This document shows, piece after piece, positions 11,119 through 41,203 of a stretch of 44,989 nucleotides of DNA. A model generated the notes under the pieces. The model ran no database searches, was not told the origin of the DNA, and worked only from the letters and a program-made list of their open reading frames with translations. The DNA lies in NCBI GenBank assembly GCA_947176385.1, contig CAMWQN010000005.1, forward strand, positions 1-44,989, read 5' to 3'. The first letter of the stretch is position 1. Each line of letters starts with the position of its first letter. The position numbers and the translations under genes were made by a program. This stretch comes from an uncultured Rickettsiales bacterium. Lineage in GTDB: Bacteria > Pseudomonadota > Alphaproteobacteria > Rs-D84.

Positions 11119-12888
11119 ATGTCTGAAAATATCAAGTCTTTACCAAAATCGCTGTGGCGGTTTTATCTGGTTCATGCAGCGCGTGGATATTGGGGAATAT
11201 TGATTATATGGGCGTTATTGTTTTTGGCTGTTATGTCAGACGGTGTATTGTTCCCAAATTTTCAGCGTATGTTTATCGCACTGTTTGAACAAACGCCTGA
11301 TGCATATTCATCATTTGTTATGCACGCATTGCCAACGGTATTGCTGATTGTTGTGTCATTGATATTGTTAGATGTTTGCGCGATTTTGCGTTCGCTGACA
11401 TTATCACATTGGCGTCCAAAAATACATAATCAGATATCCGAAATATTAACAGGTTATGTTCAACAGCAATCAATGTCATACTGGACTGGGCGTATGCCTG
11501 GAAAAATCAATTCTCAGATAAGTTATGTTGCAGACGGTTTTTCAGTAATTTCCAACTTTATGGAAATGATTGGTGCATCGGCTGTGATATTGGTAAACGT
11601 CGGATTGATATTGGGGATAAACGCATACGTTGCAGTAATCTTTGCATTTGTGTTTGTATTCAGACTGATTTATGGCGGTCTGTTGATACGTCCGATGGGC
11701 AATGCCGCCAAAGAAGCCAGTGCCGCGGGCAGTCATTTGTCTGGTAAATTGGTTGACAGTTTGTCGAATTATTCAATCGTAAAATTGTTCGCCGGAATTC
11801 GCGCTGAAAAACGGTATCTGGCAGAACCACGCCAGAAACGTATCAAAGCCCAGATGTTTGCCATGTTTGTACAGCGTCTGTTTTGGGCGGTGCCGACATT
11901 GGTTTGGGATATTGCATTTGGGTGCACAATGTTACTGTGCGTATGGCTGTTTATGCAGGGACGAATTCTGGTATCAGAAATCGTATTTACAACATCGGTA
12001 TTTTTCAGTGTTATGGGTACAATTTCACGCATAGTAAATCAAATCCCCGACATTGTTGATAAACTGGGCAGTGCCAAGAAAGCATACGATGAATTAAACA
12101 TTGCATTAACAATCACAGACGCAGACAATGCGCCTGCATTGCATGTCACACATGGCAAGATTGAATTTCGCAATGTCTGGTTTAAATATAAATCAAAATG
12201 GGTGTTGCGTGATTTTAATTTGACGATTAAGCCCGGCGAAAGTGTCGGCATTGTTGGTGCATCTGGCGCTGGCAAGACCACATTGGTAAACTTGTTAATG
12301 CGTTTTTATGATCCAACGCGTGGCGAAATATTGATTGATGGTCAAAACATTCGTGATGTATCCCAGGATTCTTTGCGTGAAAACATATCATTTATTCCCC
12401 AGGAACCATCAATGTTTAATCGAACATTGCGTGAAAATATTGGATATGGTCGCATGGATGCAACCGATGCGCAAATCCGCCATGCCGCACGCCAGGCTGC
12501 CGCGCATGAATTTATCATGGCAACGGACAAGAAATATGATTCACTGGTTGGTGACCGTGGGATAAAATTGTCTGGCGGTCAGCGTCAGCGTATCGCAATC
12601 GCACGTGCTTTTCTAAAAGACGCACCAATCTTGGTCTTGGACGAGGCTACATCTGCCCTGGACAGTGAAACCGAGGTTGCAATTCAAAAATCATTTGAAG
12701 AACTGGCTGATGGTCGCACAACAATTGCGATTGCCCACCGTTTATCGACACTGCGTAATATGGACCGTATTGTTGTAATGCAAAATGGCAAGATTATAGA
12801 GCAAGGTTCGCACCGCGTACTATCACGCAAACGTGGTGAATATGCACGCCTGTGGAAAATGCAGTCTGGCGGTTTTATCCAGGAATAA
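11119..12888 (+). CDS. ABC transporter permease/ATPase, MsbA/exporter type
   Basis: Six-TM region, Walker A GASGAGKTT, LSGGQRQRIAIARA, ILVLDEATSALD. Confidence 0.93.
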   Translation: MSENIKSLPKSLWRFYLVHAARGYWGILIIWALLFLAVMSDGVLFPNFQRMFIALFEQTPDAYSSFVMHALPTVLLIVVSLILLDVCAILRSLTLSHWRPKIHNQISEILTGYVQQQSMSYWTGRMPGKINSQISYVADGFSVISNFMEMIGASAVILVNVGLILGINAYVAVIFAFVFVFRLIYGGLLIRPMGNAAKEASAAGSHLSGKLVDSLSNYSIVKLFAGIRAEKRYLAEPRQKRIKAQMFAMFVQRLFWAVPTLVWDIAFGCTMLLCVWLFMQGRILVSEIVFTTSVFFSVMGTISRIVNQIPDIVDKLGSAKKAYDELNIALTITDADNAPALHVTHGKIEFRNVWFKYKSKWVLRDFNLTIKPGESVGIVGASGAGKTTLVNLLMRFYDPTRGEILIDGQNIRDVSQDSLRENISFIPQEPSMFNRTLRENIGYGRMDATDAQIRHAARQAAAHEFIMATDKKYDSLVGDRGIKLSGGQRQRIAIARAFLKDAPILVLDEATSALDSETEVAIQKSFEELADGRTTIAIAHRLSTLRNMDRIVVMQNGKIIEQGSHRVLSRKRGEYARLWKMQSGGFIQE

Positions 12889-12943
12889 ATTTCTGTTGAA
12901 AATGTGTTTTAATCAGATTGCCTTTTGTGGTATAATATTCCAC

Positions 12944-13915
12944 ATGAGAAAAAGATTATTACACATTTTACCTGTTGTGCTGTGCATGCTGTCTGGTGCA
13001 GCATATGCAAATTGGCAGTATCCGGGCACATACGTCGGTGACGGTTGGTATGCCGACGATGGCAGTCGCTTTGTTATATCAGTCCGTGGTGGCGCATCAT
13101 ATTCATTCGCATCGATAAAGAATGAAATTGGATCCATGACCGCAGAATATTTTTACAGTCCATCTGATGGTCTGGTTGTATCTGGTGCATGGTATGACGC
13201 ATGTGTTGATTCCGGCAAGTGTAACGAGGCTGATTTTGAATACGCTGGCATTGGCGATTTGGCAAATTTACCAGCCAAGGAAAATTATTCATCATTTTCA
13301 TTTGCCGCCGGTGCGTCAATTGGATGGACAATACCAAATCGTCCCCAGTGGCGTATAGAGGCTGGCTGGGACCACATATCTGAAACCGAATATAATGTAT
13401 CCCCATTGTTTGATGGCGATTTGACATTAACCAGCGGTATTGTTGTAAATGCACAAAGCGGCAGTGTTCAGTCCAAGATTTCAACAGATATCATCAGTGC
13501 AATGGCGTTTTATGATTTCTTTGATGGTCTGCAAAAGCCTGTCCAGAAAATGATACCGTATATTGGATTTGGTGTTGGATATGCAGATACAAAAACAACA
13601 TTGAATTTGTCGGATATCTATGGCGATTTATCAACATCTGTTGATTTACAGCAATTTGGCGAATTGGACGACTATAATGTATTGCAGTTTTATCGTTCTG
13701 AAACCAGCACATCAAATATCGCTGGATTATTGGCACTTGGATTTTCATATGGGATAACCCAAAACCTGTTTATGGATTTGGGCGCACGTATAATGTATGT
13801 CCCGCGTATAAAATGGGCACTGACGAACGAAGATGGTACCCGTCATCGCGATTGGTTCAGCGGTGAAAACCTGGTTTATACCAATGTAATGCTGGGATTG
13901 CGATTTGAATTCTAA
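12944..13915 (+). CDS. Outer-membrane beta-barrel protein
   Basis: Signal peptide MRKRLLHILPVVLCMLSGAAYA; terminal MLGLRFEF. Confidence 0.85.
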   Translation: MRKRLLHILPVVLCMLSGAAYANWQYPGTYVGDGWYADDGSRFVISVRGGASYSFASIKNEIGSMTAEYFYSPSDGLVVSGAWYDACVDSGKCNEADFEYAGIGDLANLPAKENYSSFSFAAGASIGWTIPNRPQWRIEAGWDHISETEYNVSPLFDGDLTLTSGIVVNAQSGSVQSKISTDIISAMAFYDFFDGLQKPVQKMIPYIGFGVGYADTKTTLNLSDIYGDLSTSVDLQQFGELDDYNVLQFYRSETSTSNIAGLLALGFSYGITQNLFMDLGARIMYVPRIKWALTNEDGTRHRDWFSGENLVYTNVMLGLRFEF

Positions 13916-13962: not shown

Positions 13963-13991
13963 TTTACATACAAATATATGTGCTTTATAAT
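13963..13991 (+). promoter_or_regulatory. sigma70-type promoter of leader element D
   Basis: TTTACA-17 nt-TATAAT. Confidence 0.75.
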
Positions 13992-13997
13992 ATAAAA

Positions 13998-14212
13998 CGT
14001 TGACGGGAATTCCGTCAATGGGGTGTGAGAACCCGTTCGAAAGCGTCGGAGTATATCTGGGGGCGCCTATGCGCCGTTTTTTGTATTACGACGAAAAACA
14101 AACTCCTGAATCCCACTATGGGTCAGGAGGGTTCGCGAAATATTAACAATACGCGACACAATTCTTTCGATTGTTCTCAACCTCCTGACCACCTGAATTT
14201 TGGGTGGTTTTT
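13998..14212 (+). promoter_or_regulatory. Structured RNA leader, copy D (candidate riboswitch/attenuator)
   Basis: CTCCTGA (14103) can pair with TCAGGAG (14123) or leave GGTCAGGAGG (14121-14130) to pair with CCTCCTGACC (14181-14190); hairpins TCGCG/CGCGA and ACAAT/ATTGT inside; terminator ACCACC/GGTGGT+T5 overlaps P1 by ACC. Confidence 0.7.
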
Positions 14213-14241
14213 CATTACGAAAAACAACAGGAGATTGAATC

Positions 14242-15024
14242 ATGAAACCAAAACTGATTACGGCACTGACTGTGCCGGTATTATTGGCGACCGGCGTCGT
14301 CGCGTCTGCGGACGAACTGCCGATATATATTGAATGTGGCAGCAGGGGGACTTGCGATTATGACAAGAATACATATCGTGCACGGTATATTTCAAGTCAA
14401 GGACAAACGTCCAGTACAAATCAAAGTGACTGTATGAGTGGTAATGATTGCTGGGTTTCGTCATATAGTATTTGCCTGAATCCTGATATGGGGCGTGATG
14501 GATACCATGATGATTGCACCAAAAACTGCAAGGATTATGGATATGAAGTTGCAGTATTGGGTGGCAGTCTTGGGGCATATAATATGGGGTGTGCATGCAA
14601 ATCGTTTACACAATGGCAGACATATAAAACCGGGGTTTTACGTGAATATGTGCGTGATGCAACGTCCAGTGCGCCATGTACTGTCAAGGCGACAAATAAC
14701 TTTAAATGTGCAACTGATTATTATGGCACCCCAGACAGTAATGGTAACGGCTGTATCCCTTGCGATGGCGCAGGAATGTATTGCAATGGTGATAAGGTGT
14801 TTGGCTGTGTTGATGGATGGTACAAAAACGCAGCCAAGAATGGATGTGTCGAATGTCCTAACAGCAAAGCGGGCAACCTGGGGTATGATTCAAATGGCAA
14901 TGGAATTAAAAGCAGTGGTGGTGGCGATGCGATAACGGATTGCTATTTTAGTAACGACACTGTTCTGTATGATGACACGGGTACGTTTACAATTGTGGAT
15001 AATGATTGCTATTACAAGCAATAG
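14242..15024 (+). CDS. Secreted cysteine-rich protein
   Basis: Signal peptide MKPKLITALTVPVLLATGVVASA; many Cys, e.g. GNGCIPCDGAGMYCNGDKVFGCVDGWYKN...NGCVECP. Confidence 0.75.
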   Translation: MKPKLITALTVPVLLATGVVASADELPIYIECGSRGTCDYDKNTYRARYISSQGQTSSTNQSDCMSGNDCWVSSYSICLNPDMGRDGYHDDCTKNCKDYGYEVAVLGGSLGAYNMGCACKSFTQWQTYKTGVLREYVRDATSSAPCTVKATNNFKCATDYYGTPDSNGNGCIPCDGAGMYCNGDKVFGCVDGWYKNAAKNGCVECPNSKAGNLGYDSNGNGIKSSGGGDAITDCYFSNDTVLYDDTGTFTIVDNDCYYKQ

Positions 15025-18957: not shown

Positions 18958-18982
18958 ATAATCCCCCGCGGTTTTGTTATAC

Positions 18983-19155
18983 AAAAATACCGCTTTTATA
19001 AAAAAGCGGTTGGAGGCTCAAAACAATATCGTGAATTGCGTGCCTTATTTATGTATATCAGCACCCTCCAACCTAAGTTGGAGTTTTTTCGTCTTAACAT
19101 GACGCACGATAAGAGGTTTTGATGCCTCATCGCTGGAATCCCCAGCGACAATATA
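18983..19155 (-). promoter_or_regulatory. Structured RNA leader, copy A, with its promoter
   Basis: Minus strand: -10 TATATT; CTCCAAC-TTAG-GTTGGAG; P1 GGTTGGAGG/CCTCCAACC (19065-19073 with 19008-19016); P2 GTGCT-GATATACATAAATAA-GGCAC; terminator ACCGCTTTT/AAAAGCGGT + T5. Confidence 0.8.
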
Positions 19156-19187
19156 AATTTTACATTAAAACGAAATAAAATCAAATA

Positions 19188-23484: not shown

Positions 23485-23515
23485 GTTTTCTTCTCCACTT
23501 GTTTTTATTGTTAAT

Positions 23516-23682
23516 AAAAAACACCGTCGTGATTAAGGACGGTTGGAGGTTAAAGACTATTCATCAATAGTGTTACTTATTTATGTATATCGTAACCCTC
23601 CAACCACAGTTGGAGTTTATTTGTTTTGATGACGAGGTCTTTACACCCCACACTGGTAATCACCCAGTGCAGTGTCATTATA
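23516..23682 (-). promoter_or_regulatory. Structured RNA leader, copy B, with its promoter
   Basis: Minus strand: -10 TATAAT (23677-23682); CTCCAAC-TGTG-GTTGGAG; P1 GGTTGGAGG/CCTCCAACC; P2 GTTAC-GATATACATAAATAA-GTAAC; P3 ACTATT/AATAGT; terminator ACCGTC/GACGGT + T6. Confidence 0.8.
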
Positions 23683-23716
23683 TCAATATTTATTTGGGAA
23701 TCAAAGTAAAATCTGG

Positions 23717-41037: not shown

Positions 41038-41203
41038 CAAAAACCGTCTGGCAAAAACCAAACGGCTGGAGGCTAGAAACTACTAAAGGTAATAGTCCCG
41101 TTTATTTATATATATCACGGGCCTCCAACCAATGGAGTTATATTTTTCCTTTAATAAAGGCTTCTAGACCTTGCGCCGGTTTCCCGTTGCGATATGAATT
41201 ATA
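41038..41203 (-). promoter_or_regulatory. Structured RNA leader, copy C, with its promoter
   Basis: Minus strand: extended -10 TGTTATAAT; CTCCA...TGGAG; P1 GGTTGGAGG/CCTCCAGCC; P2 CCCGT-GATATATATAAATAA-ACGGG; terminator GCCGTTTGG/CCAGACGGT + T-run. Confidence 0.8.

Follow-up and report, generated by a model that had tools for sequence, protein, structure and literature searches.

What is the structured leader that precedes a gene for a Cys-rich protein in this genome, and how might it act? The leader, which we call D, occupies positions 13998-14212 on the plus strand of the window, i.e. the whole analysed stretch of 44,989 nucleotides from an uncultured Rickettsiales bacterium. An earlier note on this DNA had read D as a fourth copy of a leader. 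The other three lie on the minus strand, before an HTH_3 (XRE) gene (A, 18981-19172) and before two small HTH genes (B, 23515-23690, and C, 41038-41200). Our analysis makes it probable that D is a domesticated two-state leader based on same-strand antisense pairing, of the kind seen in C4, IsrK and, on the evidence presented here, sRNA-Xcc1, antisense RNAs through which phages regulate antirepressor genes, and that it has multiplied in a small gut alphaproteobacterium near Candidatus Enterousia.

The layout proposed for D (a promoter, hairpins, a competitor strand, a stem P1, enclosed hairpins and a terminator) was recovered element by element where it had been placed; all features given below lie on the plus strand. 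A sigma70-type promoter (TTTACA-17-TATAAT, 13963-13991), recognized by its consensus match alone (11/12), predicts a transcription start near 13998. Hairpin 1 (TTGACGG/CCGTCAA, 14000-14018) is followed by hairpin 2 (GGG/CCC, 14020-14034), whose loop holds the strand a1 (TGAGAAC, 14026-14032), and the strand b1 (TCGAAAG, 14037-14043) comes just after hairpin 2. An early terminator-like hairpin (GGCGCC-TATG-GCGCC plus T6, 14062-14082) would yield a short isrK-like RNA carrying a1 and b1. Further downstream lies GACGAAAAACAAACTCCTGA (14090-14109), the end of which is S1 (CTCCTGA, 14103-14109), the competitor for S2. The latter (GGTCAGGAGG, 14121-14130) is the 5' strand of stem P1 and the beginning of a domain resembling sRNA-Xcc1. 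Within P1 are the hairpins P2 (14133-14156), with an A/U-rich loop, and P3 (14158-14174), whose loop contains b' (CTTTCGA, 14164-14170), the complement of b1. The complement of a1, a' (GTTCTCA, 14173-14179), forms the joiner between P3 and P1 (J3/1). S3, the 3' strand of P1 (CCTCCTGACC, 14181-14190), shares the bases ACC with terminator 2 (14188-14212; ACCACC at 14188-14193, GGTGGT at 14203-14208 and a T run). The Shine-Dalgarno (SD) sequence CAGGAG (14228-14233) is complementary to both S3 and S1, and the gene behind it (14242-15024) encodes a 260-amino-acid Cys-rich protein with a signal-like N-terminal stretch and no match in Pfam or NCBIfam. The predicted folding energy of D was -86.8 kcal/mol, compared with -58.1 ± 4.5 kcal/mol for dinucleotide shuffles (z = -6.4). 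The gene located 5' of D (12833-13915 of the window) gave a weak match to PagL (E = 0.0044, under the cut-off), and its product is likely an outer-membrane protein.

To be a copy of the same element, D should be detected by a model that has never seen it, and the earlier note had let its claim depend on this. With filters off, a covariance model built from A-C only gave D a score of 41.5 bits (E = 2.2e-8, a rough value, as are all E-values of the models built here), and the best non-member in the window reached 17.4 bits. Since D is detected, its description as a diverged fourth copy stands. Stem P1 of D is altered yet compensated, as S1, S2 and S3 change in concert, and its P2 loop is indeed diverged, lacking the UAA side of the family loop; this loop is not constant in the family either. 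About half of the copies precede secreted or surface proteins, so that the element is not tied to HTH genes, as the earlier note had argued. The earlier reading is thus supported but incomplete. It did not contain the roughly 45 genomic copies, the subfamily of D, the long-range helix formed by a1 and b1, or the kinship with sRNA-Xcc1, C4 and isrK, and because the last two were missed, a phage-type antisense module was taken for an isolated attenuator.

The A-C model found about 45 leader copies in the 995-kb genome to which the window belongs (a draft assembly of 42 contigs) and matches in 42 of the 59 genomes searched, with at most 45 per genome. With a second covariance model, the family was present in 176 of 202 genomes of the order and in 11 further genomes from other families of the same class; a sample of 399 genomes of the phylum added no further carrier. 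Among the carriers with a name are Candidatus Enterousia and further alphaproteobacteria of the gut. Carriage of the D or A-C pattern by phages, plasmids or viral contigs was considered and dropped, as no match was found in those sequences. No earlier description of the family in these bacteria was found in the literature searched. The subfamily of D comprises about ten copies, all before small secreted proteins and several with an extra early terminator.

Some loci deviate from the simple arrangement. Three additional copies of sRNA-Xcc1 type on C19, C41 and C13 of the same genome (L062:917-1005, L296:1241-1331 and L297:578-677) escaped the A-C model; they have a1/b1 upstream and secreted or membrane proteins behind. 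Tandem leaders, with at least two elements before one gene, occur at L050, L055, L083, L112 and L140. At L029, L034, L036 and L038, no gene lies directly behind, and a second module resembling P1-P2-P3 (ACTGGTTGGGG...GAATATATTGAATA...CCCCAACC) follows immediately 3' of the terminator.

The strands a1 and b1 form a two-part long-range helix, a1 with the joiner between P3 and P1 and b1 with the P3 loop. Within the genome of D, the mean duplex energy was -16.0 kcal/mol with the copy's own partner and -9.7 kcal/mol with foreign ones, a difference reached in 0 of 20,000 permutations. The same comparison gave Z = -31 for 131 distinct copies and Z = -12 for 25 distant ones. In a plain MAFFT alignment of 42 copies, built without structure, 91% of the cells of this helix pair, single positions showing as many as four types of pair, and its covariation was 0.70, compared with 0.205 in shuffled and at most 0.14 in slid controls. 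The competing stems behave likewise: own partners beat those from other copies with Z = -9.5 for S1:S2 and Z = -17.7 for S2:S3. Two sets of helices result, {a1:a', b1:b', S1:S2} (state I) and {hairpin 2, P1, P3} (state II), each of them nested and the two mutually exclusive through S2. RNAalifold returned state II unprompted from the 42-copy alignment, with 99.3% of cells paired, and in nearly every copy the free-energy minimum was one of the two states. State I was the lower one in 98 of 116 copies before the terminator and in 111 of 116 after it. Conserved pairings and covariation thus show two predicted folds that exclude each other through S2.

Two other pairings did not hold up. Extending the a1 helix into S3 by way of the 5' strand of hairpin 2 gave only Z = 1.7, and this pairing was dropped. 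The likeness of S1/S2 to attC sites (CTCCAAC...GTTGGAG) was given up as well, since the D type (CTCCTGA/TCAGGAG) and the types of distant copies violate the attC consensus.

Instead of two folds, the RNA might adopt a single pseudoknotted one, in which a1 and b1 are paired while P1, P2, P3 and hairpin 2 persist, and only S1 and S3 exchange. Such a structure would agree with the placement of a1 and b' in hairpin loops (those of hairpin 2 and P3, respectively), where they overlap the stems by only 1-3 nt. However, b1:b' of the distant copies extends over 8-14 uninterrupted pairs, which use up the P3 loop entirely or take in part of the P3 stem, column 106 of the alignment follows its a1 partner over its P3 partner where the two conflict, and the nested state I is the energy minimum. 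We therefore regard the pseudoknot as improbable and keep the two exclusive folds.

Both outputs of the leader can be related to S3. In 130 of 144 copies, stem P1 and the 5' arm of the terminator have 3-6 nt in common. Together with the covariation of S1:S2 and S2:S3, this speaks for the earlier idea that the competitor, P1 and the terminator form one putative attenuation device. Most copies lie about 25 nt 5' of a start codon with an SD sequence matched to S3, and S3 fits its own SD beyond foreign ones (Z = -8.0 for all copies, -3.6 for the genome of D, -2.9 for its relatives and -4.3 for distant copies), with such combinations as CTTCC/GGAAG, CTCCC/GGGAG and CTCCTG/CAGGAG. The distant copy L240 runs from S3 to the gene without a terminator and retains the S3:SD match alone. 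Terminator overlap and S3:SD match agree on the polarity, in which formation of P1 would turn the gene on. Two observations count against the switch: in D, P1 and the terminator overlap by only about 3 bp, so that a P1 stem shortened by this much could be present together with the terminator, and S1 equals S3 in many copies, so that S1 could cover the SD sequence in state II too.

Our best reading is that the D-type module would control termination and translation of genes for surface proteins and HTH proteins. In state I, pairing of a1 with a' in J3/1, of b1 with b' in the P3 loop and of S1 with S2 would free S3; terminator 2 would be fully formed, S3 could mask the SD sequence and the gene would be off. 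In state II, hairpin 2, P1 (S2:S3), P2 and P3 would form; P1 would take the ACC at the terminator base and hide S3, so that the gene could be transcribed and translated. The short RNA ending at 14082 could compete for a' and b' in trans and drive the full transcript into the ON state, as experiments have demonstrated for IsrK. For D, the ON/OFF polarity, processing by RNase P, action in trans and the trigger are what we infer.

The genes behind the leaders are diverse. Among 115 automatically chosen downstream open reading frames with an SD sequence, 38 belong to a group of small XRE-like HTH proteins and about 40 encode Cys-rich secreted proteins; the remaining ones include beta-barrels, a C5 cytosine methylase, an EcoRI-type methylase, a superinfection-immunity protein and a PLD protein. 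Prepilin-like proteins (assigned by eye) and an outer-membrane beta-barrel stand behind the leaders of distant genomes. In relatives, the leaders L150, L106, L126 and L125 precede genes for a C5 cytosine DNA methylase, an EcoRI-type adenine methylase, a superinfection-immunity protein and a PLD protein, which are typical of mobile elements.

Which known RNA does this element resemble? At the gathering threshold, Rfam models detected only tRNA and no other RNA family in the whole window. In a scan of 261 nt, D matched sRNA-Xcc1 (RF02221) over the full length of the model (1-87) at 14121-14198, with 33.8 bits and E = 1.9e-4, its best match among 4227 families. Its 5' half (14000-14081) weakly matched isrK (RF01394; 20.7 bits, E = 0.015, gathering score 50). 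Both matches were lost in a 38-kb scan with stricter filters, and the 33.8 bits of D, like the 51.8 bits of the best copy in its genome, are below the RF02221 gathering score of 53. Also below this score, sRNA-Xcc1 matched the distant copies L238 and L256 over the whole length of the model and exactly at the element, genome searches with it landed on copies found independently by the A-C model (e.g. G000:C11:2390-2467 and C22:2764-2837), and, reciprocally, the family model built here found two sRNA-Xcc1 loci. Due to the low scores and the loss in the larger scan, we treat this as remote homology and not as membership. Structurally, D has stem P1 around P2 and P3, a joiner of about 6 nt and a terminator-like end after P1, as expected for sRNA-Xcc1.

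For comparison, we analysed 30 sRNA-Xcc1 loci from Pseudomonadota scoring above the gathering threshold. They too have a1/b1 upstream (Z = -11.8), and in many of them a second a/b copy brackets the SD sequence of the next gene (Z = -6.3), as in L286 (CTGAAAG-AGGAG-ACACAAG-CC-ATG). By eye, the proteins behind these loci resemble phage antirepressors (Bro-N, KilA-N), Rha and SymE. A conserved early terminator (CCGCACCCGACAG...GCGGTTTTTTGTGCC) is often located between b1 and the sRNA in these loci (L266-L295), and its loop strand matches the 5' strand of P1 in several of them. The annotation of bacteriophage P1 lists a1, b1, C4, a2, b2 and icd in this order, and the corresponding strands pair in that phage.

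A ligand-binding function would be an alternative for the junction. In a small-molecule riboswitch, P1-P2-P3 would be the aptamer, and a metabolite bound by the P2 loop would stabilize P1 against terminator 2. A three-way junction with one conserved loop, the rival strands S1, S2 and S3 and the terminator overlap do resemble an expression platform, and a single type of element governs many genes. However, the P2 loop is variable and D itself deviates in it, the controlled genes share no common pathway, and sRNA-Xcc1 loci and phage C4, with the same fold, employ a' and b' for antisense pairing, so that no ligand is needed to account for the junction. We therefore consider a riboswitch unlikely. 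As to candidate ligands, c-di-GMP was set aside as unlikely in this genus, since six copy-bearing genomes contain 0 GGDEF proteins. Finally, it is very doubtful that the terminated leader (14000-14212) or a processed 3' domain is a trans-acting sRNA for other mRNAs next to an incidental gene: sRNA-Xcc1 has been reported as a stable RNA of 88 nt (PMC2996969) and is termed trans-acting in the title of a cited work, and about six genomic copies have no gene directly behind, but most copies are placed and SD-matched as described above, a' and b' pair best with their own upstream strands, and the a1/b1 pattern of D recurs nowhere in the genome except in its own complement.

The antisense leader that we propose shares its order of parts, i.e. 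promoter, a1, b1, a three-stem structured RNA and a gene, with C4 of phages P1 and P7 (RF01695). In both, a' lies between P3 and P1 and b' in the P3 loop, and both strands are complementary to the upstream a1/b1. C4 folds into three stems and acts as an antisense RNA, its a' and b' loops blocking the target's ribosome-binding site (PMC5320573), and c4-a1b1 is a listed motif (PMC2864571). The annotated c4-icd-ant layout of bacteriophage P1, with upstream a1/b1 and a start-codon copy, is that of the sRNA-Xcc1 loci. The C4 model itself had 0 matches at E ≤ 1 in the genome of D. C4 controls a phage antirepressor, whereas the target of D is none. An a2/b2 copy, which is central to both C4 and the sRNA-Xcc1 loci, is absent from the start codon and ribosome-binding site of D (Z about 0 in its genome), and pairing of a' and b' with the own start-codon region was dropped, as none was found in this genome; the target logic of D must therefore differ. 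RNase P cleavage at GGW before P1 is a trait of C4, and S2 of D begins with GGT, a putative cleavage site.

IsrK of the prophage Gifsy-1 is likewise a promoter-proximal module with its own terminator that pairs in cis downstream in its inactive form. When paired in cis, the full-length RNA shows no activity; it is activated in trans by the short RNA that ends at the terminator, and read-through is partial (PMC4825925). In contrast to IsrK, no small open reading frame was seen between the RNA and the target in D.

One congeneric relative retains the complete phage arrangement before a Rha-like gene (L303), which suggests an evolution from phage module to domesticated leader. In the clade of D, the start-codon copy would have been lost, and the 3' strand of P1 is complementary to the SD sequence instead. 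At about even odds, a host-associated bacterium with a 1-Mb genome took over an immunity RNA from a phage and multiplied it to some 45 copies, which serve as its private two-state switch before genes for surface and DNA-binding proteins, with the anti-SD strand of P1 replacing the start-codon site, and sRNA-Xcc1 is the middle of a control unit a1/b1 - a'/b' - a2/b2. If true, a phage lysogeny switch became a highly repeated regulatory RNA in a reduced genome, one RNA device joins three Rfam families (C4, isrK and sRNA-Xcc1) that were unjoined as far as we found, and sRNA-Xcc1, until now regarded as an independent sRNA that acts in trans, gains a concrete, testable role in the control of the gene directly behind it. 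The roughly 45 variants, every one of them with a separate a/b code, provide a test set for the evolution of two-state RNAs.

Like D, sRNA-Xcc1 consists of a P1/P2/P3 domain with a1/b1 upstream, complementary to the P3 loop and J3/1, and sits upstream of a gene, which is symE in Xanthomonas cassettes (PMC12444791). The copies of the D family lie outside integron cassettes as far as seen, and the a2/b2 copy at the next start codon of the sRNA-Xcc1 loci is missing in the clade of D. Unlike sRNA-Xcc1, the family reaches about 45 copies in one genome, and its targets are secreted, surface and HTH proteins.
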